Counted from the stretch's first letter, positions 25,482-49,225 are shown. The stretch: 64,000 nucleotides of DNA from an uncultured Acidimicrobiia bacterium (GCA_958295745.1 OY282370.1:186001-250000), one strand, 5' to 3'. Numbers and translations: made by a program. Notes: generated from the sequence alone by a model not told the origin.

Positions 25482-27446
25482 CTAGGCTGAGACGGAGGCG
25501 CCCGCAACCAGCCCGATCCGTTCGGCAACCTCGGCCGCCTCCTGGCCGGCCGCATACAGGTCCCGAGCCCGGACCGCATCCCCGATGGTGTAGATCGCCG
25601 CCCGCAGCCCGGCCCGCCGCAGCTCGTCCGACAGCTCCGTATCGGGAACCCGCCCCCCGATCACCACGGCGCCGACCTCCAACCAAGCCTCCTCCCCCCG
25701 GGTCTGGATGCCCACCCGGCCGCCGGTGAGCAGCTCGGCGGTGGTTTCCCGGTAGATGCGCACTCCTTCATCGGCTTCGAGCTCCATCTCCATCAGCAAC
25801 CCGTTGAACTCCCCGTCCGCCGCCAAGGAAGCTCCCCCCTCGACGATGTGGACCACCGACCCCGACCGGCGCAGGTGCTGTGACACCGTGCAGGCCGCGA
25901 AGTCGCCGCCGAGTACGGCCACCTCGCCCTCCCATCGGTCGGCGGGCCGCTCCAGCGCCGACAGGACATCGAACACCGGGATGGTCCGATCCTGCTGGTC
26001 CGCCCACAGACGGCCGCCCCGGGCGCCGGCGGCAACCACCACCGCGTCGGGGTCCATACCGCGTACGTCCTCGACGGCGACGGGTCGGCGCGTCTCCACC
26101 GCAACACCCAGCTTCTCGAGCTCGAGGGCCAGCCAATCGACCAGCATCCCGTACTCGGGCAGGGCCTTGCGCAGATAGTGGAGCTGCCCGCCCAGCCGTC
26201 CGGACGCCTCGCACAGCAACACATCATGACCCTGGAGGCCGAGGAAGCGCGCCGCGTGCATCCCCGCCGCCCCGGCCCCGACCACCAGCACGCACTGCGG
26301 GGCCGGGACGGTCCGGCGGATTCGCGATATCTCGTGAGTGCTCGAAGGGTTGGCCGCACACCCGGCCGGGGTCCGGGCCACCGTGAGGTTCACACAGGTG
26401 TTGCATCCGATGCAGGGCAGTATCTCGGCGGCCCGGCCCTCGATCAGCTTCTGTACGTAGTCCGGGTCGGCATGGAAGGCGCGGGCCAGGGTTATGTACT
26501 CGAACCCTTCCCGTTCCATGACCATGTCGGCGAACACGGGATCGTTCATCCGCTGCGCCACGCTCACCGGCGTCCGGTCCCCTACCGCCCGGCGGATCAC
26601 GGCCGCTTCCGACACGAAACCGCCCTTCGGAGTTTCCGGGCCCTGGAATATCTTCGACATCGACTCGTACGTACCGCCGGCCACGTCGATCAGATCGATG
26701 CCGGCGTCGGCCAGCATGACCGCGAAGCGGGCCGACTCCTCCGCCTCCAGCCCGCCTTCGACGTATTCGACGGCCGATATGCGGTATCCGATCGGATACT
26801 CCGGCCCCACCACCCCCCTGACAGCCGCCAGCACCTCGAGCGGGAATCGGGCCCGGTTCTCGAGGGGGCCTCCGTACCCGTCGGTCCGCCGGTTCGACTG
26901 CGGAGAGAGGAACTGTCCGAGCAGGTAGCCGTGCGCCCCGTGGAGATGGATCATGTCCACGCCCGCCTCCAGGCACCGCTCGGCCGCCCGTGCGAAGTCG
27001 TCGACGACCCTCCGTATGTCAGCCCGGGTCATCGGGCGCGGGACCGCTCCGCGGTCCATGAACGTCGAGGGGACCGCCGACGGAGCGATCGGCCGCCGGT
27101 GATGGGCCGTCGGGGAGGCCTGCCGTCCGCCGTGGTGGAGCTCCATGGCCAGCTTGGCGCCGTGCCGGTGTATCTCGCCGGCCATCCGCGCCAGGGCCGG
27201 AACGACGTGATCACCGTGGCATCCGACCTGGTAGGGGTTCCCCCGGCCCTCGGGCGACACGTAGGTCGATTCGAGCTGGATCAACGCCGCCCCGCCCATC
27301 GCCCTCCGGCGGGCGTAGGCGATGTAGCGCTCGTTGAGGCTGCCGTCGAGGTCGGCCAGCGACTTCTCCATCGGACCGACGATGAGGCGGTTGCGCATGT
27401 ACATCCCGTTGATGCGCCCCGGGCGAAGCAGGTTCTCGAAAGCCAT
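25482..27446 (-). CDS. NADH:flavin oxidoreductase with FAD domain (Old Yellow Enzyme, dienoyl-CoA reductase type)
   Basis: A 654-residue multidomain reductase. Residues 1-330 form the FMN-binding TIM barrel (MRNRLIVGPM, MIHLHGAHGYLLGQFLSP, ITLARAFHADPDY). A cysteine cluster follows at about 340-360 (CIGCNTCVNLTVARTPAGC), expected to bind a 4Fe-4S cluster. The rest has the FAD/NAD-binding GAGAAGMHAARFLG. Relatives include 2,4-dienoyl-CoA reductase and trimethylamine dehydrogenase. It is the last gene of the long leftward block, 21 bases after the Tm-1-like gene. Substrate unknown. Confidence 0.9.
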   Translation of the reverse strand: MAFENLLRPGRINGMYMRNRLIVGPMEKSLADLDGSLNERYIAYARRRAMGGAALIQLESTYVSPEGRGNPYQVGCHGDHVVPALARMAGEIHRHGAKLAMELHHGGRQASPTAHHRRPIAPSAVPSTFMDRGAVPRPMTRADIRRVVDDFARAAERCLEAGVDMIHLHGAHGYLLGQFLSPQSNRRTDGYGGPLENRARFPLEVLAAVRGVVGPEYPIGYRISAVEYVEGGLEAEESARFAVMLADAGIDLIDVAGGTYESMSKIFQGPETPKGGFVSEAAVIRRAVGDRTPVSVAQRMNDPVFADMVMEREGFEYITLARAFHADPDYVQKLIEGRAAEILPCIGCNTCVNLTVARTPAGCAANPSSTHEISRIRRTVPAPQCVLVVGAGAAGMHAARFLGLQGHDVLLCEASGRLGGQLHYLRKALPEYGMLVDWLALELEKLGVAVETRRPVAVEDVRGMDPDAVVVAAGARGGRLWADQQDRTIPVFDVLSALERPADRWEGEVAVLGGDFAACTVSQHLRRSGSVVHIVEGGASLAADGEFNGLLMEMELEADEGVRIYRETTAELLTGGRVGIQTRGEEAWLEVGAVVIGGRVPDTELSDELRRAGLRAAIYTIGDAVRARDLYAAGQEAAEVAERIGLVAGASVSA

Positions 27447-27467
27447 GGCCGTCTCCTGATTCTTCGA

Positions 27468-28685
27468 CTAGCTCGGCGGTGAACTCGTCCGCGAACGAGC
27501 GGCCGCCCCGACCAGCGCCTCGGCGAATACGGGGTCGTTGATGTGCCGGTCCACCTCCACCAGCGACACGGCGGGCGACATCCGGGACCGCACCCCCTCG
27601 ACGAAGGCGTCCACCGCCTCCGGATCGTAGAAAGGGCCTCCCTCGATGTCGAGGGCGGAGAAGCCCTTCATCGGCACCAGCACGGAGGCCGCCCCTATCG
27701 GGTCGCCGAGGCGCTCCGCCACCGATTCGCCGAGCCGGTAGTTCTCCTCCGGGGTGGTGCGGACCAGCGTCACCAGATCGTTGTGGGGCTGGTGGGTGCG
27801 GCTGCGAAATCCGGGAGGAAGGCTCGCTATGGGACCCAGGCAGATCATGTCGACCGCGCCGGGAGCGACGGCCTGGGGGACGCCGAGCCGGGCAGCCGTC
27901 CGGAGGCGGTCGGGCCCGGCGGGCCAGAGACCCCCGAAAAGCTCGTCGGTCAGCTCGCTGATGGTGACGTCGATCACCGACGAGACGAGGCCCTGCGCGA
28001 CGAACGACTCGAAGGACCGCCCGCCCGTTCCGTTGGCGTGGAAGACCAGTGACTCCCGGCCGGCGGAGGAAAGCAGGGCCCGGCAGTGCGTCACACACTG
28101 GTTGGTGACGCCGTACATCGTCAGGCCGACCGAGCGGTCCGGGCCTACCTCCTGCTGCAGCCGCCCCGACCGCCGCAGCGCCGCCGCTACGCCGGCCAGC
28201 CGCGCGATCATGCCGCGCAGGATGCTGTTGCCGCCCTCTATGTCCACTATCGGGTAGAGCATGGTCACGTCGCCGCCGCCGACCAGCGGTCTTGTCTCCC
28301 CGGCCACCGAGGTGGCCATGAGCACCTTCGGGATACCCACGGGAAGGACCGGCGCCAGGTGCGAGAACACCACGGCGGCGTTGGAACCCCCCATACATAC
28401 CAGCGCCCCCACCTCGCCGTTCTCGAGGAGGCGGCCCAGGATCCGGGACGCGCCTCTGGACATCGCCGAGACGGCCTCCGCCCGGCCGAGCGCAGGCATA
28501 TCCCCGAGCGGGCGTCCGGCCGCCTCGGCCACGGCTTCGGCGGGGTGATCGCAGCCGTGTTCGCCGCCGAACACTCCGGTGTCGATGGTGATGGGCCGCT
28601 CCCCCAGGGCCCGGAGGGACTCCACCAGCAGGCCGAGCGGTTCGGCCTTGGTGTCGAAGGCCCCCGCCACGACGACCCGGCTCAC
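27468..28685 (-). CDS. Tm-1-like ATP-binding domain protein (UPF0261)
   Basis: A 405-residue protein starting VVVAGAFDTKAEPL, the diagnostic opening of the UPF0261/Tm-1 N-terminal family. Further segments are GGSNAAVVFSHLAPVLPVG, KVLMATSVAG, YPIVDIEGGNSI and VFHANGTGGRSFE. The plant homologue Tm-1 binds ATP and a viral protein; the bacterial role is not established. It is 40 bases downstream of its usual partner, the PEP-hydrolase-family TIM barrel, so the two probably form one functional unit. Confidence 0.88.
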   Translation of the reverse strand: MSRVVVAGAFDTKAEPLGLLVESLRALGERPITIDTGVFGGEHGCDHPAEAVAEAAGRPLGDMPALGRAEAVSAMSRGASRILGRLLENGEVGALVCMGGSNAAVVFSHLAPVLPVGIPKVLMATSVAGETRPLVGGGDVTMLYPIVDIEGGNSILRGMIARLAGVAAALRRSGRLQQEVGPDRSVGLTMYGVTNQCVTHCRALLSSAGRESLVFHANGTGGRSFESFVAQGLVSSVIDVTISELTDELFGGLWPAGPDRLRTAARLGVPQAVAPGAVDMICLGPIASLPPGFRSRTHQPHNDLVTLVRTTPEENYRLGESVAERLGDPIGAASVLVPMKGFSALDIEGGPFYDPEAVDAFVEGVRSRMSPAVSLVEVDRHINDPVFAEALVGAAARSRTSSPPS

Positions 28686-28725
28686 GGCCGTCGGCTCATG
28701 ATCGGCTCATAGTGACGGCGTCGGC

Positions 28726-29556
28726 TCAAAGGGCGACGCTCTTGAACGCCCGCACGGTGTCCGCCACGGCTTTCTCGGTCGGCAGCCGTTCCATCGTGGA
28801 GGCGCCGATGAACCCGTAGCAGCCCGACCCGCGCATCACCGTCTCGACCTCCCGGGGGCCTTCGAGAGGACCGCCGTGCAGTACCACCAGGATGTCGGGG
28901 TTCACCGCCGCGGAGATCTCCCTGGTCTCGACGGCCTGCTCGATGCAGGCATCGAGGGATATCGTGAAGGAGTCGTCGGCGCCGATACTGCCTCCGGTGG
29001 TGAGGCCCAGGTGAACCACCATCATGTCCACCCCGGCCTCGGCGAAGGCGGCCGCCTCATGGGTCTCGTAGCAGTAGGCCATGGTGAACATCCCCCGCTC
29101 CGACGCCTTCCTGAGCATGCCTACCTCTTTGTCCAAGCCGAACCCGGTGGCTTCCAGGCTCTTCCGCCATCTTCCGTCCGTATACCCGATGGAGGGAAAG
29201 TTGATGACCCCCGAAAAACCCATCTCCTCCACCCGGCCCAGGAACCTGTCCATGACCCGGGTGGGATCCGTGCCGTTCACCCCGGCTATCACCGGCGTGT
29301 CCCGAACCACCGGCAGCACCTCCCGCTCCCCCATCTCCATGACGATGGCGTTGGCGTCCCCGATGGGCAGCAGCCCGGCGTTGGAACCGTGGCCGGCCAT
29401 CCGGTATTTGCCCGAGTTGTAGATCAGGATCAGGTCGGCCCCGCCCGCCTCGGCGAACTTGGCCGAAATCCCGGTTCCGGCCCCGGCCCCGATGATCGGG
29501 CTGCCCATGGCCAGCGTATTTCGCAGTCGTTCCAGAACCTGATCCCTGGTGAACAT
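28726..29556 (-). CDS. Phosphoenolpyruvate hydrolase-family TIM-barrel protein
   Basis: A 276-residue TIM barrel. IGAGAGTGISAKFAEAGGA, ILIYNSGKYRMAGHGS, LPVVRDTPVIAGVNGTDP and the C-terminal GFIGASTMERLP are typical of the family annotated as phosphoenolpyruvate hydrolase, which is distantly related to PEP mutase/isocitrate lyase and often adjoins or is fused to UPF0261. The ATG at 29556 follows GGAG; a longer reading is possible but lacks similarity. Biochemical function in this context is unknown. Confidence 0.85.
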   Translation of the reverse strand: MFTRDQVLERLRNTLAMGSPIIGAGAGTGISAKFAEAGGADLILIYNSGKYRMAGHGSNAGLLPIGDANAIVMEMGEREVLPVVRDTPVIAGVNGTDPTRVMDRFLGRVEEMGFSGVINFPSIGYTDGRWRKSLEATGFGLDKEVGMLRKASERGMFTMAYCYETHEAAAFAEAGVDMMVVHLGLTTGGSIGADDSFTISLDACIEQAVETREISAAVNPDILVVLHGGPLEGPREVETVMRGSGCYGFIGASTMERLPTEKAVADTVRAFKSVAL

Positions 29557-29662
29557 CGCTGCTCCTATTCCTTTCCATAGAGGTGCTGAACTTTGATATA
29601 TCCCTCGCTGACCAGGCGTTTCAGTCATAGACCGGCAGCAGGGGTATTTGCCCGCCCCCGGC

Positions 29663-30472
29663 TCAGTCCACCATCAGCAGGCCGCCGTTGACATGGATGG
29701 TCTGGCCGGTGACGTAGGCGCCGGCTTCCGAAGCCAAGAATACGGCGGGGCCCACCAGATCCTCGGCTACCTCCATACGCCCCAGCGGAATGTACTTCTC
29801 GTACTCGAACAGGTAGTCGCGGTGGTGGGCATGCATCGGGGTGTCCACGGCGCCGGGGGCTATGGCGTTGACCCGCACCCCGTGAGGGGCCGCGTCCTGG
29901 GCGGCCGCCCTGCTCAAGGATTGGAGGGCGGCCTTGGCGGAGCAGTAGTCGACCCCGCCGCCGTCCTGGTTGAACACCGACGCCCGCGAAGACCAGGAGC
30001 TGCCGATGTTGATCACGCTGCCCCGCCCCGCGGCGACCATCTCCGCCAGAACCGCCCGCATGATCCGCATCGGCGCCCGCAGGTTGACCCCGTACATCCG
30101 GTCCCATTCCTCATCGGTTATCCCGATGATGTCCGCATAGCCCATGATCCCGGCGTTGTTGATCAGGACATCGATGCCGCCGCCCATATCCAGGGCGGCC
30201 CGAACGATCCGCTCGGGCGTGTCTTGGGCCGTCACATCGGCGTGCACGGTGGATGCCTTCCGACCGATCGCCCTTATCTCCTCCGCGGCCCCTTCCAGAT
30301 GGCCGGCGTTCAGATCGACCAGCACCAGATCGCTGCCGGCGTAGGCCAGACCCTTCGAGAGAGCCAGACCGATGCCCCGGCCGGCGCCCGTGACCGCGCT
30401 GACGCAGCCGCTCAAGTCGAACAGGTTGCGGGATATGTCAGGGAAAGGAAGACTCAACTTCGGCCCTTTCAT
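29663..30472 (-). CDS. SDR family oxidoreductase
   Basis: A 269-residue classical short-chain dehydrogenase with a roughly 20-residue N-terminal extension. TGAGRGIG is at residues 28-35, DVLINNAGIMG in the middle, the catalytic serine is in INIGSSWSS, Tyr/Lys in YCSAKAA, and NAIAPGAVDTPM follows. It resembles gluconate 5-dehydrogenase/3-oxoacyl reductase members. It lies between the nucleoside phosphorylase and the PEP-hydrolase-family gene in the long block, with gaps of 113 and 106 bases. Confidence 0.9.
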   Translation of the reverse strand: MKGPKLSLPFPDISRNLFDLSGCVSAVTGAGRGIGLALSKGLAYAGSDLVLVDLNAGHLEGAAEEIRAIGRKASTVHADVTAQDTPERIVRAALDMGGGIDVLINNAGIMGYADIIGITDEEWDRMYGVNLRAPMRIMRAVLAEMVAAGRGSVINIGSSWSSRASVFNQDGGGVDYCSAKAALQSLSRAAAQDAAPHGVRVNAIAPGAVDTPMHAHHRDYLFEYEKYIPLGRMEVAEDLVGPAVFLASEAGAYVTGQTIHVNGGLLMVD

Positions 30473-30585
30473 CAGCGGGGGGCGTCTTCATCGGCTGTCA
30501 TCAGCGGGGGCGCCGCATCGAAACGCAAGGATACCCCTCATGGCGGCGCGAGGGTTGCTCACCGAGGCGTCGGCTGAGCCTATCT

Positions 30586-31341
30586 TCAGTCGAGGAGGGT
30601 GATCGACAGGGCCGCCTCGAACACCGCGGCGTTGGCGGCGTCCAACCTCGCCTGTTCCTCCTGGGCGAGCGGGTCCAGGAAGCTCCGGTCGGCGTCGAGC
30701 TGATCCCACACCGCCAGGAGGGCGGCGGCCTCGAAGCCGAAGTACCGGGCGACCGCGTAGAGGGTGGCCGCCTCCATGTCCACCGACCCGTAGCCGCGCT
30801 CCCGCCACTCCTCCACCATCGCCCCGCTCTGGGCGAATATCGAGCTCCAGGTCAGGTGAAGGGAGTCGGCGGCCCTGACACCCCTCGCCTCGAGCTCCGT
30901 CCGGCCGAGCTCGGTCAGACGAGGGTCGGCGGCGACCGCATCGGAGGCCCCGTACAGGTGCGCCACTCCTTCACGGGCCGCGGCCGTGGAAGGCGCCACC
31001 ACGTCGCCGGTGGCCAAGCCGGGGTCCAGCGCACCGCAGGTTCCGATCATCACCATCCGGGGAGTTCCGAGAACGCCGAAGAGGTGCGCCAACTCCACGG
31101 CCCTCGGGGCGCCGTAGACGCACGAGTACACCACCGGCGACCCGCGCCACCGGCCCCAGAACATGTCGGGAAAGGCGAGCTCCCGCACCTCGTCGAGCCG
31201 GCCCAGCCGCCAGGCAGTGCGTTCCGCCCGCCACCACGAGCCTTCCATGATCACGGCTCGGGGTATGTCGCCGGCGTCCATTCCCAGGGCCGCCAACCAT
31301 TCGTCCCGCCCCAGGTCCATAACCGCCTTGCGTCCGGTCAT
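30586..31341 (-). CDS. Nucleoside phosphorylase (uridine phosphorylase/PNP superfamily)
   Basis: A 251-residue member of the PNP_UDP_1 family, which splits nucleosides with phosphate into base and ribose 1-phosphate. MVMIGTCGALDPGLATGDVVAP is the phosphate/ribose-binding strand-loop, and SVDMEAATLYAVA is the ribose-binding motif with the conserved Glu. The ATG at 31341 overlaps the MFS stop by four bases; a longer frame upstream runs through the MFS gene. Its presence with a nucleoside hydrolase in the same block argues that nucleoside-derived sugar enters this pathway (inference). Confidence 0.85.
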   Translation of the reverse strand: MTGRKAVMDLGRDEWLAALGMDAGDIPRAVIMEGSWWRAERTAWRLGRLDEVRELAFPDMFWGRWRGSPVVYSCVYGAPRAVELAHLFGVLGTPRMVMIGTCGALDPGLATGDVVAPSTAAAREGVAHLYGASDAVAADPRLTELGRTELEARGVRAADSLHLTWSSIFAQSGAMVEEWRERGYGSVDMEAATLYAVARYFGFEAAALLAVWDQLDADRSFLDPLAQEEQARLDAANAAVFEAALSITLLD

Positions 31342-32549
31342 CGGTGCCTCCCGCCGGTTTCCTGGATAGATCGGGCCCGGGCGTACCAGCCGTAGGTCCA
31401 GACCGCGCCGGCCAGAACGGTACCGGCCAGGAACAGGAAGACCGCGTCCCAGGCGCCCCGCCCCACGAAACCGCCCACCAGCGGCGAGCCGGCGCCGCCC
31501 CCGAGGTTGAAGGCGAGGATGAAGACGCCGCCCGCGAAACCCGCACCCGCAGGGTTGACCATCCGGGGGAAAAGGCCCAGCACCAGGGAGGAGGAGGCGC
31601 CGACCAGCGCCGTAGCCGCCGCCACCGCCGCGAAACCTCCCGCCAGGCTCGAAACCTGGTTGATCGTGATCAACGCGGCGGCCGCGGCGGTCAGCACGAT
31701 TCCGCCCTTCAGGGCGGGCCGGTGGCCGGCGGCGAGCCGGAACCAGCGTCCCAGGGCGATGGTCGCCGCGACGGCGATGGCCGGCATGGCGGCGGACAGC
31801 AGCCCGGAGCGCGCCACCGACACGCCGTGGACTTCGACGAAGTAGGAGGGCGTCCAGACCAGGAGAGCGACATAGGCCGCCCCGATCGCCGCCGCCGGGG
31901 GCAGCAGCCCGAGCAATCTGCCCGCCGCACCGCGCGGGCGCTCGGAATCCGGCGGTTCCACGATCGGATCCCGCACCCCGATCCACCAGACCACGCCGAC
32001 CGGCACGAGCACCGCCGCCGCGGCGATGAACACCGCCGCCGCACCGCCGCGCTCCACGATGAACCCGCCGAGCGCGAAAGTGAGGGCGCTGCCCGCCGCG
32101 AAGCAGGAACCGAACGAAGCCATCACCCGGCCGGCCCGTTCCTCCGGCACCCAGCGGCCCAACGCTCCGACGAGGGGGGTCCATCCCATGGCCTGGAACA
32201 GGCCGTTGGCGGACCACACGAGGAGGGCCGGGACGAAGCTCCCGGACGAGACGACGAACAACACGTTCATGACCCCGCTCCCCACCAGACCGAGGCCCAC
32301 CAACCGACGGGCGCCGATCCGGTCGGCCAGACGCCCGATGGGCACCGCCGAGAGGGAGTAGACCCAGAAGAAGCCGGCCGCCAGGGCGCCGATCTCCGCC
32401 GCTTCGAGGCCCGCTTCCTCACCGAGGCGCGGCGCCGCCGCCGAGAAGTTCACCCTTCCCAGGTAGTAGACGGCGTACACCGACCATCCGGCCGCCACCA
32501 AGCCCCACCGGGCGTTCGGTCCGGTCGCCGAGCGGGCGGCGGCGGTCAA
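31338..32549 (-). CDS. MFS transporter
   Basis: A 403-residue protein with about 12 hydrophobic helices. The first loop motif of the major facilitator superfamily appears as PIGRLADRIGARRLVG (about residues 70-86), and the start resembles organophosphate/sugar-phosphate or hexuronate transporters (YAVYYLGRVNFSAAAP). The TTG start overlaps the ATPase stop as TTGA, with no clear ribosome site, so it is probably translated by coupling. It may export or import a pathway intermediate. Confidence 0.87.
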   Translation of the reverse strand: MTAAARSATGPNARWGLVAAGWSVYAVYYLGRVNFSAAAPRLGEEAGLEAAEIGALAAGFFWVYSLSAVPIGRLADRIGARRLVGLGLVGSGVMNVLFVVSSGSFVPALLVWSANGLFQAMGWTPLVGALGRWVPEERAGRVMASFGSCFAAGSALTFALGGFIVERGGAAAVFIAAAAVLVPVGVVWWIGVRDPIVEPPDSERPRGAAGRLLGLLPPAAAIGAAYVALLVWTPSYFVEVHGVSVARSGLLSAAMPAIAVAATIALGRWFRLAAGHRPALKGGIVLTAAAAALITINQVSSLAGGFAAVAAATALVGASSSLVLGLFPRMVNPAGAGFAGGVFILAFNLGGGAGSPLVGGFVGRGAWDAVFLFLAGTVLAGAVWTYGWYARARSIQETGGRHR

Positions 32550-34485: not shown

Positions 34486-34488
34486 CTC

Positions 34489-35415: not shown

Positions 35416-35453
35416 GTAACTTCCGGGGTTTCAGCCTGTCGGTCAGGGTAAGG

Positions 35454-35488
35454 GTCGGCGGCGCGCCTCGGCGTTGCGCGCCGCCGAC
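35454..35488 (-). terminator. Perfect 13-bp stem-loop after the second binding-protein gene
   Basis: Arms 35454-35466 and 35476-35488 are perfectly complementary over 13 G+C-rich positions with a nine-base loop. It lies 12 bases beyond the binding-protein stop and 38 before the permease start. No U-run follows. Position and strength match the hairpin at 10210-10241 in the other importer operon, suggesting the same role: attenuation of distal genes or stabilisation of the binding-protein message. Confidence 0.75.
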
Positions 35489-35500
35489 CGGTTCTTCGTC

Positions 35501-36904: not shown

Positions 36905-36965
36905 GCTTGGTTCCTCCTTTTGAAAAGTTGGAAATTTCGGGTGCGTTTTCATCTACCGTTTCTGC

Positions 36966-42502: not shown

Positions 42503-42553
42503 GACATCACCTCGCAGCCCGCCGAACACTCCCCCGGCCGTCCAAAGAACCCG

Positions 42554-43210
42554 TCATCGATCAGCCTCCTCGCGGTTCATCTCGTCGGCCCAAGCCTCGA
42601 ATATGAGAGCCACGGTAGTAGCGCCGGGGTCCTGATATCCCAGGCTGCGGTCCGGTGCGTAGCGGGCCCGGCCCGCCTTGGGCGGCATACCGGCGGTCGA
42701 AACGGCGCCCCGGCGGGCGGCCCTCGCCGCGGCCGACATGACCCCGGCCAGGGCCTCCCCCGCCTCGAGCGCTGCCCCGGCGCCCTCGACCGCCGGGGCT
42801 AGGGCGTCCAGCATCGTCTTGTGGCCCGGCTCGGCCCTTCCCAACCTCATGACCCGGGCCGTTCCCTTCCCCAGGGCGGCCACGAAGTCGGACGCGTCCG
42901 GCTCGGCAATCCCGGACAGGCGGCCGGCCGCCGCCCCGAAGAACGCCCCGAACAGCGCTCCGGCGGCGCCCCCAACGGTCTCGTGGAAGGCTCCCCCGGT
43001 GGTGCGGAAAACCCCGGCCGCGCCGCGGTCGTCCTGCCCGCCGATCCGGCGCCCGGCCTCGGCGAGAGCTTCGGCCATGTTCACGCCGTGGTCGCCGTCG
43101 CCGGCCACCGCATCCAGACGGGACAGCTCGTCCTGGTGTTCGGCCACCCGGCGGGAGGCCGAGACGATCATTCGGGCGGCCAGGCTGCGGTCCATCGATG
43201 TAACCGCCAT
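42554..43210 (-). CDS. dhaL: Dihydroxyacetone kinase subunit L (DhaL)
   Basis: A 218-residue all-helical nucleotide-binding subunit. VAGDGDHGVNM carries the magnesium-binding aspartates, GGAAGALFGAFFGAAAG the helix around the ADP site, and GHKTMLDAL and PDRSLGYQDPGATTVA the conserved C-terminal half. It supplies ADP/ATP chemistry to DhaK. DAK-family pairs act on dihydroxyacetone or on tetruloses in polyol pathways. No DhaM phosphocarrier is present, so the ATP-dependent mode is likelier. Confidence 0.9.
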   Translation of the reverse strand: MAVTSMDRSLAARMIVSASRRVAEHQDELSRLDAVAGDGDHGVNMAEALAEAGRRIGGQDDRGAAGVFRTTGGAFHETVGGAAGALFGAFFGAAAGRLSGIAEPDASDFVAALGKGTARVMRLGRAEPGHKTMLDALAPAVEGAGAALEAGEALAGVMSAAARAARRGAVSTAGMPPKAGRARYAPDRSLGYQDPGATTVALIFEAWADEMNREEADR

Positions 43211-43227
43211 GGTCGTCTTCGATCCCC

Positions 43228-44232
43228 TCACATCGTGAACCCCGCCCCGCGGGCGGGGGCGTCGTACAGATCGAGCATCTCGTCGTCCATGCTGCATAGC
43301 GCGAACGCGAAGCCGGCCTGGTCCAGAGTGGTGGCGTACGGTCCGATCCACGACCGGACCACTTCGATCCCCCTGTCCGCTAGGGCGGCCCGCGCCCCCC
43401 GGTAGAGGATGGACAGCTCCATCAGCGTGAGCGAACCGGCGTTGTTCAGCAGCAGGCCGACCCGGGCGCCGGGACCCGGCTCGGCGTCGTCCACCAGCCG
43501 CCCGATCATCATCTCCGAGATATCGTCCGCCCCCGCCTCCTCGCCGAGGCGGGTTCCCGGCTCCCCGTGCACTCCCATCCCCACCGAGACCGAGGTGTCT
43601 TCGGGGTCCCCGAGGGGCTGGCCGCTGATCGGGTGGGCCACCGTGCCGAGCGCCGCCGACAGCGACCGGGTGTTGTCCCTCACCCTCCGGGCCATCTCTG
43701 CGCACGCCGGCAGCGCCCCGCCCCGTTCGGCCAGCGCCCCGACGATCTTCCACACGAAGAACAGGCCCGCCCCGCCCCGCCGCTCGGTGCTCCGGTCCTT
43801 GGGGGCCGACGCCACATCGTCGTAGAGGACCACCATCTCGACGCCGTCGATTCCCTCGTCCTCGGCCTCGGCGACGGCCAAGGAGGCGTTCATGATGTCG
43901 CCGGTGTGGCTGGAGACCAGCAGCAGTACGCCCCCGCCGCGATCGGCGGCGGCGATGCCTTCCAGTATCCCGCCGGGTCCCGGCGAGGAAAAGATCGGCC
44001 CGGGTACGTTCACATCCAGCAGCCCCTCGCCCACCCAGCCGATCATGGCGGGTTCGTGCCCCGAGCCGTTGCCGATCACCAACCCGACCCGGCCCTCCGG
44101 TTTGGGGACCGCCCGCACCACCAAGGCGCCGGACAGCCGGATTATGTCGGCGTGGGCCGCCGCATAACCCTCCAGCATCTCCTGGACCGCCCGGCGGGGT
44201 TGGTTGAAGAACCGCCGGGTGCGGATGCTCAT
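43228..44232 (-). CDS. dhaK: Dihydroxyacetone kinase subunit K (DhaK)
   Basis: A 334-residue substrate-binding subunit. GNGSGHEPAMIGWVGEGLLD is the ligand loop, LVSSHTGDIMNASLA the central strand, and GMGVHGEPGTRLGE contains the histidine that forms the hemiaminal with the ketone. VGLLLNNAGSLTLMEL is typical of the C-terminal domain. It overlaps the epimerase gene by four bases and is followed by dhaL after 17 bases. The neighbouring isomerase, epimerase and aldolase suggest a ketose substrate rather than plain dihydroxyacetone (inference). Confidence 0.92.
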   Translation of the reverse strand: MSIRTRRFFNQPRRAVQEMLEGYAAAHADIIRLSGALVVRAVPKPEGRVGLVIGNGSGHEPAMIGWVGEGLLDVNVPGPIFSSPGPGGILEGIAAADRGGGVLLLVSSHTGDIMNASLAVAEAEDEGIDGVEMVVLYDDVASAPKDRSTERRGGAGLFFVWKIVGALAERGGALPACAEMARRVRDNTRSLSAALGTVAHPISGQPLGDPEDTSVSVGMGVHGEPGTRLGEEAGADDISEMMIGRLVDDAEPGPGARVGLLLNNAGSLTLMELSILYRGARAALADRGIEVVRSWIGPYATTLDQAGFAFALCSMDDEMLDLYDAPARGAGFTM

Positions 44233-45071
44233 GCGATGTTCTCCCTGATGAAGCGGGCCGCGTCGGCGGCGTCCCGGTCGAGGTCGTCGGAGAGATCCCG
44301 CCATGCGTAGGTGGCCCGGCCCGTCTCGGCGCCCGAGTTGGGGAAGGTCTCGAAGACCACCCAGCCGCCGTAGCCCGCCTCGTCGAGAGCCGTCTTGAAG
44401 GAGGCCCAGTCGATATGGCCGTACTGGGGGGCGCGGCGGTTGTTGGCCGCCGCCTGGACGTGGCCGATGCGCCCGGCCGCCAGGCGGACCGCCCCGGCCA
44501 GGTCGTCCTCCTCCATGTTCATGTGGAAGGTGTCGAGCTCGACCTCGACGGAGGGATGGTCCACCGAGTCGATGAAGTCCAGGCACTCGGCGACCGTGTT
44601 GAACATGAAGCTCTCGAAACGGTTCAGCACCTCGAGGCAGATGGTGACACCCAGCGCGGCGGCGTGTTCGGCCGCTTCGTGGAGCGACGCCGCCGAACGT
44701 TTCCGGCGGACGTCGAGATCGCCCTCGGGGAACCCCATCCACGGGGCGTAGGTCACACCTCCCAGGATCGGGCTCCCCAGCCGGGCCGCCTGATCGAGGC
44801 AGCGCCGGAGATGCTCCACCCCGGCGGCGCGCACACCGGCGTCTGGGCTCGAGATGTCCATCTCCGGGGTGAGGCCGGTGCTGCACAGGACGCTCAGGCC
44901 CAGAGACTCGGCGGTGCGGGCGATCCGCTCCACCCCGACGTCGACCCCGGCCACGAACGACATCTCCACCCCGTCGTAACCGGCCTCGGCCGCCTTGGCG
45001 AAAACCGAGGCCTGGTCGTCGTACCAGCTGTCCAGCCAGTAGAAGATCTCGATTCCGACCGGCCGGGTCAT
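44229..45071 (-). CDS. Sugar isomerase/epimerase, ketose 3-epimerase-like
   Basis: A 280-residue AP endonuclease 2-family TIM barrel. The four metal ligands of the D-tagatose/D-psicose 3-epimerase group can be placed: Glu in CLEVLNRFE, Asp in ELDTFHMNM, His in GHVQAAANN and Glu in VVFETF. The AAANNRRAPQYGHIDW stretch is also typical. It would interconvert ketose C3 epimers. It overlaps the DUF35 gene upstream and dhaK downstream, both by four bases. Confidence 0.88.
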   Translation of the reverse strand: MTRPVGIEIFYWLDSWYDDQASVFAKAAEAGYDGVEMSFVAGVDVGVERIARTAESLGLSVLCSTGLTPEMDISSPDAGVRAAGVEHLRRCLDQAARLGSPILGGVTYAPWMGFPEGDLDVRRKRSAASLHEAAEHAAALGVTICLEVLNRFESFMFNTVAECLDFIDSVDHPSVEVELDTFHMNMEEDDLAGAVRLAAGRIGHVQAAANNRRAPQYGHIDWASFKTALDEAGYGGWVVFETFPNSGAETGRATYAWRDLSDDLDRDAADAARFIRENIA

Positions 45072-45544
45072 GCGGCCCTCCCTTCGATCTCGAACGCCGC
45101 CCTCAGCAGAGGGTGGGCGGGGACCCCTTCCATGAACTTCACGGCTACCACCGTACCTTTCTCCGGTATCCGGTCGCCCAGCACCCTGTGGGTGATACCT
45201 CCTTCCACCCCGTCCAGGCGTATCGAGGCGAGCAGGTAGGGCGCCTCCACGCCGCCGAAGGGCGGGGGGATGTGAACGCGGGTGGCGGCGGTTACCGTCC
45301 CGGTCCCGGGCAGGTCGTACCAGGCGGTTTCCGCCAGATCGACCGGGCAGAACGGGCGGGGGGGAAACCACGCCGCCCCGCACCCGTCGCAGCGGGTGGC
45401 CCTCAGGACGCCCTGGTCGATCCCCCGATAGAAAGGGTCGGCGAACCCGGCCGTATGGCGGTAGCGCTGCGACATCTCGATATGGAACAGGGAGGTCGGC
45501 CGCCCCGCCCTACTCACACCGCGCTCCACGCCGTGCACCCGCAT
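45068..45544 (-). CDS. DUF35 Zn-ribbon/OB-fold protein
   Basis: A 158-residue protein with a rubredoxin-like zinc ribbon (CDGCGAAWFPPRPFC) followed by an OB-fold (GTGTVTAATRVHI, APYLLASIRLDGVEGG, VVAVKFMEG). Such proteins are obligate partners of thiolase-fold enzymes, for example ChsH2-DUF35 with the aldolase Ltp2. ATG 45544 is behind TTGGAG; an internal ATG (MSQRYRH) would give a shorter form. It sits 47 bases after the thiolase-like gene. Confidence 0.85.
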   Translation of the reverse strand: MRVHGVERGVSRAGRPTSLFHIEMSQRYRHTAGFADPFYRGIDQGVLRATRCDGCGAAWFPPRPFCPVDLAETAWYDLPGTGTVTAATRVHIPPPFGGVEAPYLLASIRLDGVEGGITHRVLGDRIPEKGTVVAVKFMEGVPAHPLLRAAFEIEGRAA

Positions 45545-45591
45545 CAGACGGGCGGCTCCAAGGACGGGGGCGGGCAGCTGGAACCATCCAT

Positions 45592-46818
45592 CTAGGCCGC
45601 CCTCCCGAAGACGTTCACCACGCTGAGGGCGCCGACCCCGGCGTGGGTGTCCGTAATCCCGATCCGGGCGTCCGGCACCGCCCTGGGGCCCGCCGCCTCG
45701 CCTCGGAGCTGGGCGACGATCTCCACCGCCTGGGCGATCCCGGTGGCGCCCACCGCCGAGCCCCGTCCGAGCAGGCCGCCCGAGGTGTTGACCGGCGTCT
45801 GCCCGCCGAGGTCGAACCGCCCTTCGGCCGCCGCCGGGCCGCCCTTGCCCACCGGGCACAACCCCAGGTCCTCGTATGCTTGGAGCTCCGCTCCGCTGAA
45901 GGAGTCGTACACCTCGGCCACATCTATCTCGTCTGCGGGGTCGTCGAGGCCCGCCGACCGGTAGGCCTGCTCGGCGGCCCGGCGCTTGGCCGCGAAGTGG
46001 GGGAACATGTCATCGGGGCGGTCGGACAGGCGGGGATGGTCGGTCGCCGAACCCGTACCCAGGACCGCCACCGGGGGGCGGTCCCCGAAGGTGGAGGCAT
46101 GCCGCTCGGCCCAGTCCCCGGTCGCCAGGAGGACGGCGGCGGCGCCGTCGCTGAGCAGGCTCGCATCGAGCAGCCGGTAGGGATCCGACAACGGCCTCGA
46201 CGCCAGCACGTCGTCCACGGTGATGGACATGCCCTTGTGGGCGTAGGGGTTGTCGAGGGCCATGCGGCGGTTCTTGACGGCCACGGCGGCGAACTGTTCG
46301 GGGGTGGTGCCGTAACGCCGCATGTGTTCGGTGATCATCAGGGCGTAGGGGGCGGCGAAGGTCCCGAAGACGGGCGTCTCCCACTCGAAATCGGCCGACA
46401 TGGCCAGTATCTCGGAGGCGGTGGAACGGTCCACGGAGCGGCCGTTGGCCTCTCCTCCGAACACGAGGACGGAGCGGGCAGCGCCCGAGCCCAAGGCCAT
46501 CACGGCCGTCCGTATGGCGAGGGCGCCGGTGGCGCCGCCCCCCTCGACCCGCACCGCGGGCTTGCCCACCAGCCCCACGGCCTCGTGCAGTACGTGTCCG
46601 AGGCTCATCTGGCGGTTGAAGTGGTCGCTTTCGTAGGCGGCCACCCCCATATCGACGGCCGCGGCGCCCGCGCCGGCGTCGATCAGGGCCGATCGGGCCG
46701 CCTCGACCACCATGTCCCGCACGGTCGCATCGTCCCGAAACCCCGCGAACGGCGTCATGCCGACGCCGACCACGAACACCCGGTCACCCGCGTCCCGCCG
46801 CCGGGTTGGTCCGTTCAC
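45592..46818 (-). CDS. Thiolase-fold protein (SCP-x/Ltp2-like) lacking the catalytic cysteine
   Basis: A 408-residue thiolase-superfamily member with VFVVGVGMTPF at the start, EGGGATGALAIRTA in the nucleophile loop, YDSFSGAELQAYEDLG and GSAVGATGIAQAVE. The position of the usual Cys in VEGACASG is Gly95 here, the usual His of the HDCF motif is Tyr, and the GHPxGATG histidine is Ser. Claisen chemistry is therefore unlikely. With the adjacent DUF35 gene it resembles Ltp2-type acyl-CoA retro-aldolases. GTG start overlaps the sulfatase stop as GTGA. Confidence 0.85.
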   Translation of the reverse strand: MNGPTRRRDAGDRVFVVGVGMTPFAGFRDDATVRDMVVEAARSALIDAGAGAAAVDMGVAAYESDHFNRQMSLGHVLHEAVGLVGKPAVRVEGGGATGALAIRTAVMALGSGAARSVLVFGGEANGRSVDRSTASEILAMSADFEWETPVFGTFAAPYALMITEHMRRYGTTPEQFAAVAVKNRRMALDNPYAHKGMSITVDDVLASRPLSDPYRLLDASLLSDGAAAVLLATGDWAERHASTFGDRPPVAVLGTGSATDHPRLSDRPDDMFPHFAAKRRAAEQAYRSAGLDDPADEIDVAEVYDSFSGAELQAYEDLGLCPVGKGGPAAAEGRFDLGGQTPVNTSGGLLGRGSAVGATGIAQAVEIVAQLRGEAAGPRAVPDARIGITDTHAGVGALSVVNVFGRAA

Positions 46819-49076
46819 GGCGCCCCGAGCTCGAAGTCGACCCGCTCGAGGCCTCCGCTGAAGGCATATTCCCCCTCGTATGAGCTGCTGACCGGCGAGA
46901 GAGTATCGGCGCCGACGCTCAACGAACCCCACGAGATCATGCCGCGGGCCATATCGGCCATGGCCAGCTCGCCCAGCACCGTTCCGTCCGCCTCCAGGCG
47001 CCCCACGCCCCGGCAGCCGCCGGTTCGCTCGAACCGGAAGGACAGGGTGCGGGTTCCGGGGGCCAAGGGGACCGAGGAGGCCAACGTCTGGCGGTTCCCG
47101 AGATAGCAGTACTCGAACACGAGGCGCCCGCCCCTGACATACAGCACATAGCCGCCGCTCACGTCGCCCACCGCCACCAGCACCCCCTCGTCGGATTCGT
47201 CCAGCGGATCGATCCGGGCGGTGATCGAGAAGGAACGGTCGAAGATCAGGGGCGTGACGCCGCCCGGGACCCGCACCGAACCGCCCAGATAGGTGAAGGT
47301 GTCCCTGGCCCGCGGGGAGCCGGGCGTCTGGAAGGTCGAGGCCCGGACGGCCAGGTAGCGGTCGTCGAGGGGAAACACGGAGTACCGGCCCGCCTCCTCC
47401 GACCACTGCCCGACCAGCTCCTGGAGCTTCTCGGGATGGCCGGCGGCCACGTCGCGGCATTCCGAGAAATCCGAGTCTATGTGATACAGCTCCCAGGGGT
47501 CGTCCTCGAAGGGCTCGTTGCGCCGGTGCCGGGTGAGCGCCTTCCATCCGTCCTGCCACATGGCCCGGTGGCCGATCATCTCGAAGTACTGCCGATCCCG
47601 CGGCGGCGGGGAGTCCGGGTCGTCGAGCACCCCCCGGATGCTGGCGCCGTGGTAGGGCATCTGGGCCACCCCCCCATACGAGGCCTGCGGCGCCACCCCG
47701 GCCAGGTCCAGGAGGGTGGGGGCGATGTCGATGGCGTGCAGGAACTGGGACCGCACCCCGCCGGTGTCGGACAGACCCTGCGGCCAGGAGATGACGAGCG
47801 GGGTCCGGACGCCGCCCGCGTAGGTGTTCTGCTTGTACCACCGCAGGGGGGTGTTGGCCGCCTGGGCCCATCCCCACGGGATGTTGGTCTGGGAGTGGGG
47901 GCCGCCGATCGTGTCGAACCGCTCCAGGTTGAAATCCACCGTGCAGAATCGGTCCTCCTCGTAGGTCACGATGTCGGCGCCCCCGTCGGGGCCGCCCTCC
48001 TGGCTGGCTCCGTTGTCGGACAGGACCACCAGGATGGTGTTGTCGAGCCGGCCGATCGAATCGAGGAAGTCCACCAGCCTGCCCAGCTGCGCATCGGTGT
48101 GATCGAGCATGGCGGCGTAGGCCTCCTGGAAACGGGCGAACAGCCGCTGCTGGTCCGGTGTCAGATCCGCCCATTCCTCCACCCCGGGGTTGAGGGGCGC
48201 CAAGACCGCATCCGGGGGGACCACCCCCAGATCCTTCTGCTGTTCGAACCGGCGCCGGCGGATCACATCCCACCCTTCGTCGTAGCAACCCCGGTACTTG
48301 TCGAGATACTCCCGGGGCGCCTGGTGCGGGCAGTGGGCCGTCCCGAAGGCCGCGTAGAGGAAGAAGGGCTGCTCCGGTTTGACCGAAACCTGGTCCCTCA
48401 CGTAGTCGATGGCGTGATCGATGAGGTCTTCGGTCAGGTGGTAGCCGTCCTCGGGCCTTCCCGGCGGATCCACCCGGTGGTTGTCCTCGACGACATCCGG
48501 GTAGAAGTGGTCGGTCAGCGCATCCAGGAACCCGTAGTAGCGCCCGAACCCGCGGCCGAGGGGCCACTGATCGTAGGGTCCGGCGGCGGTCGTCTCTTCG
48601 AGCGGGGCCAGATGCCATTTGCCCACCGCCAAGGAGGCGTAACCGGCGTGCCGGAGCACCTCGGCGAGGGTGGCGGCCGATTCCGTCACCCGGCCGCGGT
48701 ATCCGGGGAAGCCGGAATCCACATTGGAGAGGTAGGCCATGCCGACGCTGTGGTGGTTGCGGCCGGTGAGCAGGCAGGCCCGGGTCGGCGAGCAGAGCGG
48801 GGTGACGTTGAAATCGTTGAACCGCAGCCCCCGCTCGGCCAGGGTGTCGATCACCGGCGTGTCGATCTCCGCCCCGTAGCACCCGAGACCCGCAAAGCCG
48901 ACGTCGTCGAGGACCACCACCACGATGTCCGGCTTGCCCCGGGCGTCGTTCTCGACCGGCGGCCACCACGGCGCCGAATCCCGGAAGTCGGATCCGATGA
49001 CGCCCCTGAAATCCTCTGCGGGTGAACCCGGCGCCGCCTGTTCTTCCCTGCCGGATGAGGTGCTGGCAGATGTCAT
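46815..49076 (-). CDS. Type I (formylglycine-dependent) sulfatase
   Basis: A 753-residue arylsulfatase-family enzyme that hydrolyses sulfate esters. The metal aspartates are Asp57-Asp58 in VVVLDDVGF, and the modified residue is Cys95 in NVTPLCSPTRACLLTGRN, a perfect C-x-P-x-R site. GKWHLAP and LVVLSDNGASQEGG provide other active-site residues. The C-terminal 200 residues form a beta-rich domain. No signal peptide is seen, so it may act in the cytosol on imported substrate. It starts the leftward 21-gene block; the formylglycine-generating enzyme is encoded at 22752-23687. Confidence 0.92.
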   Translation of the reverse strand: MTSASTSSGREEQAAPGSPAEDFRGVIGSDFRDSAPWWPPVENDARGKPDIVVVVLDDVGFAGLGCYGAEIDTPVIDTLAERGLRFNDFNVTPLCSPTRACLLTGRNHHSVGMAYLSNVDSGFPGYRGRVTESAATLAEVLRHAGYASLAVGKWHLAPLEETTAAGPYDQWPLGRGFGRYYGFLDALTDHFYPDVVEDNHRVDPPGRPEDGYHLTEDLIDHAIDYVRDQVSVKPEQPFFLYAAFGTAHCPHQAPREYLDKYRGCYDEGWDVIRRRRFEQQKDLGVVPPDAVLAPLNPGVEEWADLTPDQQRLFARFQEAYAAMLDHTDAQLGRLVDFLDSIGRLDNTILVVLSDNGASQEGGPDGGADIVTYEEDRFCTVDFNLERFDTIGGPHSQTNIPWGWAQAANTPLRWYKQNTYAGGVRTPLVISWPQGLSDTGGVRSQFLHAIDIAPTLLDLAGVAPQASYGGVAQMPYHGASIRGVLDDPDSPPPRDRQYFEMIGHRAMWQDGWKALTRHRRNEPFEDDPWELYHIDSDFSECRDVAAGHPEKLQELVGQWSEEAGRYSVFPLDDRYLAVRASTFQTPGSPRARDTFTYLGGSVRVPGGVTPLIFDRSFSITARIDPLDESDEGVLVAVGDVSGGYVLYVRGGRLVFEYCYLGNRQTLASSVPLAPGTRTLSFRFERTGGCRGVGRLEADGTVLGELAMADMARGMISWGSLSVGADTLSPVSSSYEGEYAFSGGLERVDFELGAP

Positions 49077-49225
49077 TCGTTCATCGGGCCTTTCAAGGTA
49101 TCGGCGCCGCCGGTGGAACAGGCGCGAGCGGCGCGACGTCTCGCCTTCGGCATCGGCGGTAACCATACTCGCGTATGGGGCATCGTCCTTCCTGTTGCAG
49201 CACGCCGCCGGACGAGAGGAAACAG

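Follow-up and report, generated by a model that had tools for sequence, protein, structure and literature searches.

A two-module gene run in an uncultured Acidimicrobiia bacterium that may degrade C5-modified ribofuranosides, possibly arsenosugars

The closest described system is sulfo-Embden-Meyerhof-Parnas (sulfo-EMP) glycolysis (YihS-YihV-YihT-YihU), in which a terminally modified aldose is isomerised, phosphorylated on O1 and split by a class I aldolase into dihydroxyacetone phosphate (DHAP) and a modified aldehyde, and the heteroatom-bearing fragment is exported (PMC12890257, excerpt). Here we describe 21 consecutive minus-strand genes at positions 25482-49166 of a 64,000-nucleotide stretch (the window) from an uncultured Acidimicrobiia bacterium (GCA_958295745.1, OY282370.1:186001-250000), whose proposed pathway would follow the same plan but differs in having an AraA-type isomerase, DhaKL in place of YihV, an extra 3-epimerase and ribosidase, and a second stage that uses coenzyme A (CoA) and retro-aldol cleavage. 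The fold of YihS differs from the AraA type. A second parallel is found in L-fucose and D-arabinose catabolism and in the DHAP shunt for 5-deoxyribose and methylthioadenosine, in which a ketose 1-phosphate yields DHAP and a two-carbon or substituted aldehyde. The L-fucose/D-arabinose route shares with our proposal the cleavage of a ketose 1-phosphate to DHAP and the isomerase fold, which is that of L-fucose isomerase; it and the DHAP shunt differ from the present case, for which we expect DhaKL as the kinase, 3-epimerisation before cleavage by a LacD-type aldolase, and conversion of the aldehyde's acid to a CoA thioester.

For the second stage, the nearest models are the retro-aldolases of steroid side chains, Ltp2-ChsH2 and Sal-Shy, in which a thiolase-fold protein has a DUF35 partner and the Tyr of a YDx[F/Y] motif (YDHF or YDCY) is the catalytic base (PMC12329534, excerpt). 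The window encodes a similar pair with YDS[FY] at this motif, for which a sugar-derived acid rather than a steroid is the expected substrate, and its thiolase-fold protein is closer in sequence to acetyl/acetoacetyl-CoA and SCP2 thiolases than to Ltp2.

Our tentative reading, which as a whole we rate somewhat below an even chance, is that the first 17 genes of the run (block A) and a nearby AMP-forming ligase serve the catabolism of C5-modified ribofuranosides, most likely arsenosugars. We propose that the logic of this pathway, by analogy, resembles sulfo-EMP glycolysis and the fucose pathway, with a CoA-dependent second stage added. An earlier note on this DNA, made from the sequence alone, knew of no described pathway with such a combination of genes, and none was found in the portions of the open-licence literature covered.

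A conserved core and a separable module

The gene run was delimited by codon-usage gene calling on the 64-kb window (Table 1, in order of transcription). The earlier note had placed the end of the locus at 49076, but the sulfatase starts 90 bases further on; it had also counted at least ten overlapping junctions, whereas with the starts used here nine of the 20 junctions overlap by 1-4 bases, and the DhaK/DhaL overlap is 10 bases under one start choice.

We searched for the isomerase in 99 genomes, the window's own included, and obtained some match in 40, at 77% identity or more in 17 and at 57-59% in 6 more. Scanning genome contigs with alignment A1 gave 64 isomerase loci, which tblastn score divided into 52 close loci and 12 distant ones that serve as the control. 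Neighbour counts at these loci are lower bounds, many loci stopping at contig ends, and the set holds two near-duplicate pairs (L072/L073 and L114/L115). The close isomerases are adjoined by DhaK at 48 loci, DhaL at 47, the substrate-binding protein (SBP) and the ATP-binding cassette (ABC) ATPase at 36 each, the aldolase at 34, the DUF35 protein at 31, the thiolase-fold protein at 28, the epimerase at 27 and the nucleoside hydrolase at 26. Less frequent neighbours are the PNP-like gene (14), the sulfatase (12), a CoA-transferase III (11), the alcohol dehydrogenase (8), a GH51-like furanosidase (7), an aldehyde dehydrogenase (ALDH; 6), a short-chain dehydrogenase/reductase (SDR; 6) and the ketol-acid-reductoisomerase-like (KARI-like) gene (2). 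Beside the 12 control paralogues, DhaK, DhaL, the SBP, the aldolase, DUF35, the thiolase-fold protein and the nucleoside hydrolase were each seen in no case; the neighbours there were the epimerase (3), alcohol dehydrogenase (2), SDR (2), ABC ATPase (1), sulfatase (1) and GH51-like gene (1).

By their record labels, the close loci belong to Acidimicrobiia, Actinomycetota, Chloroflexi/Anaerolineae, Fraserbacteria, Alphaproteobacteria, SAR324 and one Truepera, the last of which (L089) has the isomerase but none of the remaining core genes. Many of the metagenome-assembled genomes behind them presumably come from sponges, to judge by their isolate codes. Since other families and phyla, with isomerases about 48-59% identical, retain the core neighbourhood, the block A core is more than a chance assembly. 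The earlier note had suggested that homologues which never co-localise elsewhere would refute a single pathway; the neighbourhood search that it proposed shows the core genes together across phyla. We consider it quite probable that this architecture represents a conserved catabolic pathway core.

Among the isomerase regions of 23 genomes, block A appears in two families, the window's own and, in a single genus (g36), one other. The g36 loci show no KARI-like gene, and their SBP lies beyond the sulfatase or out of view; in one genome of genus g4, about 25 kb of the same contig separates the aldolase from the nucleoside hydrolase. Where the isomerase is 57-59% identical, four loci have the order epimerase-DhaK-DhaL-isomerase-SBP-permeases-ABC-aldolase-nucleoside hydrolase-PNP unbroken, and in the other two a contig end interrupts it. 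Within the own family, the nucleoside hydrolase is present in 12 of 12 genomes with the isomerase and in neither of the two without it.

The last four genes (block B: SDR, PEP-hydrolase-like, UPF0261 and Old Yellow Enzyme (OYE)-like) behave differently. They occur together in all ten loci fetched, own included, from the 27 places matched by UPF0261, and the PEP-hydrolase-like, UPF0261 and OYE-like genes adjoin none of the 52 close isomerases. In two genomes from genus g2, block B lies next to the PNP-like gene, the arrangement also seen in the window; in five from genus g4 it is on another contig, with no block A genes in the fetched stretch. Because it is on other contigs in five of these seven relatives, the 21-gene run is two modules, A (sulfatase to PNP-like, 17 genes) and B, that adjoin in some genera. 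The proposal of one locus of about 21 genes thus stands for the co-directional run but not for a single unit kept everywhere. The KARI-like and alcohol dehydrogenase genes were tried as core members and dropped at 2 and 8 of the 52 close loci. UPF0261 and the PEP-hydrolase-like protein correspond to the two halves of plant Tm-1.

Enzymes of the two proposed stages

The predicted structure of the isomerase has the AraA/FucI (L-arabinose/L-fucose isomerase) fold. Its sole Pfam match, AraA_central, is sub-threshold (20.4 of 24 bits), and its best NCBIfam model, the sulfoquinovose isomerase SftI, scores 157.9 bits and does not reach the cut-off of 700. The AlphaFold2 (AF2) model (mean confidence, pLDDT, 88) finds L-arabinose isomerases as its best matches in the PDB (TM-score about 0.77), and its 41 best Foldseek matches are all arabinose or fucose isomerases (E 1.2e-26 to 2.2e-14). 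The candidate metal ligands E303, H344, H447 and H448 are present in 55 of 55 aligned rows. Here and below, short rows were removed by length limits before residues were counted, and L119 and L120, with a stop in the match frame, were left out of alignment A3.

The other enzymes of the first stage keep their family residues. In the 3-epimerase, the E, D, H and E of the four motifs are found in 32 of 32 rows and the His of GHVQ in 30; the kinase has the H, D and H of DhaK in 52 of 52 rows and the GDGDHG of DhaL in all 50 rows with letters at the site. DhaK forms a covalent bond with a hydroxymethyl ketone and transfers phosphate to the hydroxyl of that group, so a ketose 1-phosphate would be expected. 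The Schiff-base Lys of DVLKLQFP occurs in 31 of 31 rows, as in class I LacD/YihT aldolases, and the nearest solved relatives of the aldolase include sulfofructosephosphate aldolases, YihT among them. A D-ribo aldose would give a 3R,4R ketose, and DHAP aldolases of the fructose-bisphosphate (FBP) and LacD type need 3S; the 3-epimerase would supply this configuration. The nucleoside hydrolase carries the superfamily Asp cluster (DTD..NE.DDQ) and the QD of NLVQDP in 29 of 29 rows, and because this putative ribosidase belongs to the nucleoside-hydrolase family, its sequence suggests that the substrate is likely a ribofuranoside. A GH51-like furanosidase is added in some Alphaproteobacteria and one Anaerolineae. 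The kinship of the aldolase with sulfofructosephosphate aldolases and the SftI match of the isomerase together hint at a sugar with a non-oxygen substituent, X, on its last carbon.

The aldolase gene is followed by a class I S-adenosylmethionine-dependent methyltransferase in the two cases scanned (L082:12404-13168, L083:12249-13196), and by open reading frames of like size in most own-family loci, but not in the window.

A catalytic Cys and the GHP and CxG motifs are the hallmarks of thiolases (EC 2.3.1). None of the 31 aligned thiolase-fold rows, which include the window's and exclude L076, removed by the length filter, has them; all 31 have EGGGATG or EGGGASG at the Cys site, together with YDS[FY], G[RQ]G[SA]xVGATG and DTH[AG]G. 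Because the cysteine is missing throughout, this protein is, as judged from its sequence, not a thiolase. It keeps the candidate catalytic Tyr in YDx[FY], with Ser at the His/Cys place (the second catalytic residue is His/Tyr in Ltp2 and Cys in Sal), and its gene adjoins that of the DUF35 protein, and we propose by analogy that the pair is an acyl-CoA retro-aldolase. Such an enzyme would be expected to split a beta-hydroxyacyl-CoA-like thioester into acetyl-CoA and a carbonyl-like fragment; acting on X-CH2-CO-SCoA, it would require an X whose centre bears an OH or can be hydrated.

At E<=1e-120, the genomes with the thiolase subfamily are precisely the 17 of the 99 (own included) whose isomerase is at least 77% identical; none of the other 82 has it. 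An AMP-forming ligase scoring above 640 bits (one match partial) is found in 16 of these 17, own included, often on another contig, and again in none of the 82. By this co-occurrence, the window's ligase belongs to block A. The 17 genomes come from three genera in one family and from genus g36 in another, and perhaps amount to two or three lineages that are independent. The ligase is 47% identical to that of the plasmid cassette described below, against 44-48% for general paralogues in other relatives; since this is not above the paralogue level, its assignment rests on co-occurrence, and we dropped the idea of identifying it as the cassette counterpart by identity alone.

In Chloroflexota and Fraserbacteria loci, the CoA-transferase III and ALDH are found instead. 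Because ALDH stands alongside either of two unrelated routes to a CoA thioester, these gene sets give good evidence that the aldehyde released by the aldolase is oxidised and then CoA-activated. Two-subunit E1/transketolase-like thiamine pyrophosphate enzymes (five loci for each subunit; for example L084:19606-20643 and L115:8886-9887) and a gene resembling 3-hydroxyisobutyrate dehydrogenase (five loci) also accompany the pathway. The E1 genes occur in loci without a visible retro-aldolase module, several of them in the group with 57-59% isomerases, and are possibly an alternative second stage.

A compact version of the pathway is carried on plasmids. A tblastn search with the window isomerase matched 17 plasmid records, and the best three, all from Rhodobacterales with isomerase identities of 29-32%, were examined. 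Each has a cassette of 15 to 16 genes; in Paracoccus seriniphilus p599725 and Marinovum algicola pMaD8, the order is MFS-thiolase-DUF35-AMP ligase-epimerase-DhaL-DhaK-aldolase-ALDH-GntR-isomerase-ABC-SBP-permease-permease-nucleoside hydrolase, where MFS is a transporter of the major facilitator superfamily. Parasedimentitalea marina pW43B has the same cassette without ALDH between aldolase and GntR, an ALDH lying about 5 kb upstream on the other strand. One cassette-bearing plasmid is typed as mobilizable. The ribosidase is the most conserved enzyme between the window and the Paracoccus cassette (54%, others compared 25-47%), and the cassette ALDH has phenylacetaldehyde and betaine-aldehyde dehydrogenases as its best models, both sub-cut-off. 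The window's MFS has no match among the plasmids. Apart from the seed, the Hyphomicrobiales genome G100, none of 384 sampled Alphaproteobacteria matched the Rhodobacterales isomerase at E<=1e-40. In G100, an ArsK-related MFS stands directly before the retro-aldolase gene, which resumes at another contig end with DUF35, AMP ligase, GntR and ribosidase, about 77 residues being missing between the parts. Two further genomes, G104 and G099 (L191, L192), have the trio of ligase, thiolase-fold protein and DUF35 adjoining a second isomerase, 54% identical to the Rhodobacterales one.

We infer each reaction of the pathway, and its substrate, from protein family and gene context. A charged riboside would enter through the ABC importer, with sulfated forms being desulfated, and the nucleoside-hydrolase-family enzyme would free 5-deoxy-5-X-D-ribose. 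The AraA-fold isomerase would convert this aldose to the 2-ketose, the 3-epimerase would take it from 3R to 3S, DhaKL would phosphorylate O1, and the aldolase would release DHAP and X-CH2-CHO. ALDH and the CoA ligase (CoA-transferase III in Chloroflexota) would produce X-CH2-CO-SCoA, and the Cys-less thiolase/DUF35 pair would split its X-C bond in a retro-aldol-type reaction to give acetyl-CoA and X-OH, which an MFS pump would export.

The families named in the earlier note (sulfatase, nucleoside hydrolase, PNP, isomerase, epimerase, DAK kinase, aldolase, polyol dehydrogenase, transporters and oxidoreductases) were all recovered by family searches, and the order that it had suggested, from uptake through deglycosylation, isomerisation/epimerisation and phosphorylation to aldol cleavage, is supported as one catabolic pathway. 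It had not mentioned the thiolase-fold and DUF35/OB pair (45068-46818), the PEP-hydrolase-like/UPF0261 pair or the plus-strand ligase and FGE-like genes. It missed the second half, in which the aldehyde would be oxidised to the acid, activated as acyl-CoA and cleaved by a retro-aldol reaction, and which gives the substrate its unusual character; catabolism of nucleosides or sulfate esters of a generic kind finds no support.

The substituent X: arsenic and its alternatives

Most seaweed arsenic is present as arsenosugars and arsenolipids, and the route from arsenosugar to dimethylarsinate is unsettled. The commonest arsenosugar is the 5-deoxy-5-dimethylarsinoyl-ribofuranoside of glycerol, S- and P-containing forms also being listed; in a gut-flora digest, the product had lost one aglycone but retained its sugar, human metabolites include dimethylarsenoethanol and dimethylarsenoacetic acid (as thio forms) and DMA, and the mechanism of degradation in digestion "is not clear" (PMC6656958, 2019, excerpt). 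If X were (CH3)2As(O)-, the intermediates would be dimethylarsinoylacetaldehyde and dimethylarsinoylacetate and the waste product dimethylarsinate, and the hydrated As=O, beta to the thioester, would mimic the beta-hydroxyacyl-CoA cleaved by Ltp2-type retro-aldolases. Arsenosugars would fit because dimethylarsinoylacetyl-CoA imitates a beta-keto/beta-hydroxy thioester and because a useless arsenical needs export. On family resemblances, we tentatively assign X as dimethylarsinoyl and the substrates as arsenosugars, an assignment that comes close to even chances without reaching them.

The exporters bear on this assignment. ArsK, an MFS for arsenite efflux, is the best NCBIfam model for all four alphaproteobacterial cassette MFS proteins scanned, the first scoring 102 bits (next model 26) and the other three 75, 85 and 162. 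Three more pump homologues are located in ars islands, which contain arsH, arsN2, ACR3 or arsenate reductase. Across 23 genomes or records, the ArsK model gave ten hits at 140-167 bits, the plasmid cassette pumps and a second Paracoccus copy at 73-101, one further hit at 73 and the rest at 55 or below. The second copy in P. seriniphilus, 77% identical, shares its run with OsmC, thioredoxin, a permease and an ArsR/SmtB regulator; in Rhodobacter CZR27, a like thioredoxin-permease-ArsR trio belongs to an island that also has arsN2, ACR3, arsenate reductase and an MFS related to these pumps. Two Burkholderiales homologues adjoin arsN2 near arsH, one of them also near ArsI. In a tree of 13 hand-picked rows, some with long branches, the second Paracoccus copy clusters with the three pumps from Rhodobacterales (98/98), and the G100 pump with the Burkholderiales ars pumps (97/94). 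As the Rhodobacterales and Hyphomicrobiales cassette pumps take different places in this tree, ArsK-related pumps seem to have been recruited twice. The arsenosugar and an exported organoarsenical had been proposed before the cassette MFS was matched to ArsK.

Several observations weigh against the arsenic assignment or the pathway that leads to it. The cassette pumps (75-162 bits) all fall under the curated ArsK cut-off of 400 (NF033733) and are relatives, not members; nine of the ten strong ArsK-like hits, all but that of G100, are not beside cassette genes in the fetched stretches, and a phosphonate C-P lyase (phn) operon contains one ArsK-like relative. The window's MFS has no listed ArsK match and falls with the Chloroflexota MFS outside the ArsK-like rows; it may fill the exporter slot. 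The only arsenic mark of the run around the second Paracoccus pump is its ArsR/SmtB-family regulator, and because the best models of its permease are SaoE and a Cu/Zn exporter, that run is only probably an ars run. The reliance on this regulator and the nine strong hits away from cassette genes lowered our rating of the arsenic assignment slightly. Ten ars-type probes at isomerase loci outside the Rhodobacterales plasmids found a single ACR3, about 16 kb away (L056). Arsenosugars are also scarce for a large dedicated cluster, and the PNP-like gene suits nucleosides better.

Other points concern the enzymes. The Chloroflexota stretches gave no 3-epimerase, and the block in the window showed no ALDH. 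The AF2 model of the thiolase-fold protein (mean pLDDT 39) is unusable for fold search, and changing Cys to Ser in the YDCY of Sal abolishes activity (PMC12329534, excerpt). The 99 relatives are nested, with few independent lineages, and the six with 57-59% isomerases gave no thiolase-subfamily or AMP-ligase match at E<=1e-120. Homologues of the trio (L154, L155) were found in 2 of 385 sampled Alphaproteobacteria, with no isomerase in the fetched stretches. At L154, the one of the two that was scanned, they adjoin a DctP-type binding protein, an acyl-CoA dehydrogenase and an enoyl-CoA hydratase; because of these neighbours and the lack of an isomerase in the stretch, the trio may also serve ordinary acids as a stand-alone catabolic module.

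The best of the alternatives keeps the pathway but makes X a carbon or sulfur substituent, as in a C5'-extended or methylthio nucleoside, so that a true beta-hydroxyacyl-CoA would be cleaved and another waste acid exported. The PNP-like gene, the homologous trio among ordinary acid-catabolism genes, the ArsK-like pump in a phn operon and, on another plasmid, a nucleoside hydrolase homologue at 32% identity next to a nucleoside transporter and a PfkB kinase would all suit it. However, it leaves the ArsK-related pumps beside the retro-aldolase in two tree branches unexplained, a methylthio group would offer no group at the beta atom for retro-aldol cleavage, and we know of no abundant marine riboside with such a C5 substituent. 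We regard it as unlikely, though a serious competitor.

Ordinary pentose or ribonucleoside catabolism, in which D-ribose or D-arabinose would yield a ketose 1-phosphate and then DHAP and glycolaldehyde, with glycolate made into glycolyl-CoA for condensation, is improbable. An isomerase, 3-epimerase, C1-kinase and aldolase would suffice for its sugar steps, and L-fucose and D-arabinose isomerases belong to the same fold group, but a CoA ligase, a retro-aldolase and an exporter should be superfluous for glycolaldehyde and glycolate, and the isomerase and aldolase have as their nearest modelled relatives enzymes for a sugar modified at its end. Less probable again is a sulfoglycolysis variant that cleaves sulfoquinovose or a sulfopentose to DHAP and a sulfo-aldehyde. 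The SftI and YihT kinships and the shared order of isomerase, kinase, aldolase and export (PMC12890257, excerpt) speak for it. Yet the isomerase is far under the SftI cut-off, neither a sulfoquinovosidase nor a YihV-type (PfkB) kinase was seen among the 21 genes, and retro-aldolase, ribosidase and DhaKL are all absent from the pathways described in the PMC12890257 excerpt. A chance run of co-directional but unrelated operons, to which the separable block B and the rarely retained alcohol dehydrogenase, KARI-like and SDR genes might point, is contradicted for block A by the recurrence of its core across phyla and on plasmids and can be set aside as highly improbable.

The arsenosugar reading could reach further. 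In several relatives, but not in the window, a Rieske oxygenase gene lies between sulfatase and retro-aldolase (L083:3895-5241, L040:2075-3322, L042:8974-10290). The glycine betaine monooxygenase GbcA is the best NCBIfam model of the one of these three that was scanned (L083; 124.8 bits, cut-off 670), and by analogy a role as arsenobetaine demethylase would fit. In its widest form, the proposal is a genetic route for arsenosugars with CoA-dependent, retro-aldol-type C-As cleavage, found in four phyla by record label and plasmid-borne, into which the GbcA-like enzyme would feed arsenobetaine in some Acidimicrobiia; taken together, we consider this possible but rather doubtful. If true, arsenosugars, dimethylarsinoylacetate and arsenobetaine would be joined through known genes. 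The covered portions of the open-licence literature gave no genes of this kind for arsenosugar degradation, arsenolipid or arsenobetaine biosynthesis or dimethylarsinoylacetate, and one source states that up to 2015 the role of invertebrate-associated bacteria in the arsenic response had not been studied (PMC4340220, excerpt). A defined cassette in culturable marine bacteria makes the arsenosugar question directly testable. Even without arsenic, the proposed roles make an unusual set that is conserved across phyla: DhaKL would serve as a ketose-1-kinase, the AraA-fold isomerase would act on a modified sugar, and the thiolase-fold retro-aldolase would cleave an acyl-CoA derived from a sugar.

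Gene inventory and flanking features

Table 1. Genes of the run in order of transcription (block A, then block B), followed by two plus-strand neighbours. Fractions are close isomerase loci adjoined.
Feature	Position	Strand	Basis
Sulfatase	46815..49166	-	PF00884; 783 aa; CSPTR; 12/52
Thiolase-fold protein without catalytic Cys, proposed acyl-CoA retro-aldolase	45592..46818	-	Pfam; EGGGATG, YDSF, GRGSAVGATG, DTHAG
DUF35/OB-fold Zn-ribbon partner of thiolase-fold protein	45068..45544	-	PF01796 + PF12172; 31/52
Ketose 3-epimerase (D-tagatose/D-psicose 3-epimerase family)	44229..45071	-	Family match, conserved residues
DhaK subunit, proposed ketose C1-kinase	43228..44232	-	Family match; H, D, H
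DhaL subunit (start 43195 or 43237)	42554..43237	-	Family match; GDGDHG
Aldose-ketose isomerase, predicted L-arabinose/L-fucose isomerase fold	41063..42529	-	Distant SftI match; AF2 model
Class I LacD/YihT-like aldolase, proposed cleavage to DHAP + X-CH2-CHO	40122..41066	-	Family match; Lys of DVLKLQFP
Nucleoside-hydrolase-family putative ribosidase	39025..40125	-	PF01156; DTD..NE.DDQ
Zn-dependent alcohol/polyol dehydrogenase (accessory, lineage-specific)	37979..38989	-	8/52
KARI-like protein (accessory)	36966..37979	-	2/52
ABC substrate-binding protein	35501..36952	-	PRK11622 family, 416.8 bits (cut-off 203); 36/52
ABC permease 1	34489..35415	-	Family match
ABC permease 2	33640..34485	-	Family match
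ABC ATPase (TOBE_2)	32546..33643	-	36/52
MFS transporter, PgtP/UhpC-like, not ArsK-like	31338..32549	-	Family match; tree position with Chloroflexota MFS
PNP-family nucleoside phosphorylase/hydrolase homologue (last of block A)	30586..31341	-	PF01048; 14/52
SDR (block B)	29663..30472	-	Family match
PEP-hydrolase-like TIM barrel (block B)	28726..29628	-	PF09370
UPF0261 (block B)	27468..28685	-	Family match
OYE-like flavoprotein with pyridine-nucleotide domain (block B)	25482..27446	-	Family match
AMP-forming acyl-CoA ligase, proposed activator of X-CH2-COOH	23758..25395	+	PF00501; co-occurrence with thiolase subfamily
Formylglycine-generating-enzyme-like (FGE-like) protein	22752..23687	+	PF03781; near block B in 6/7 relatives

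Upstream of the run lie a plus-strand nuclease/LTD gene and housekeeping genes (smpB, an M23 peptidase, ftsX, ftsE and a release factor); downstream, the ligase and FGE-type genes occupy 22752-25395. The sulfatase carries CSPTR, which we take to be the signature of the Cys type, and its gene and the FGE-like one flank the locus 23 kb apart. This arrangement suggests that they are maturation partners, the FGE-like protein probably maturing the sulfatase, which would remove sulfate from a sulfated form of the substrate. An FGE-like gene also lies near block B in six of seven relatives. Finally, G+C content is 0.554 at 60001-64000 and 0.594 at 4001-8000, against 0.66-0.71 in the other 4-kb windows, and these stretches are possibly foreign DNA or rich in intergenic sequence.

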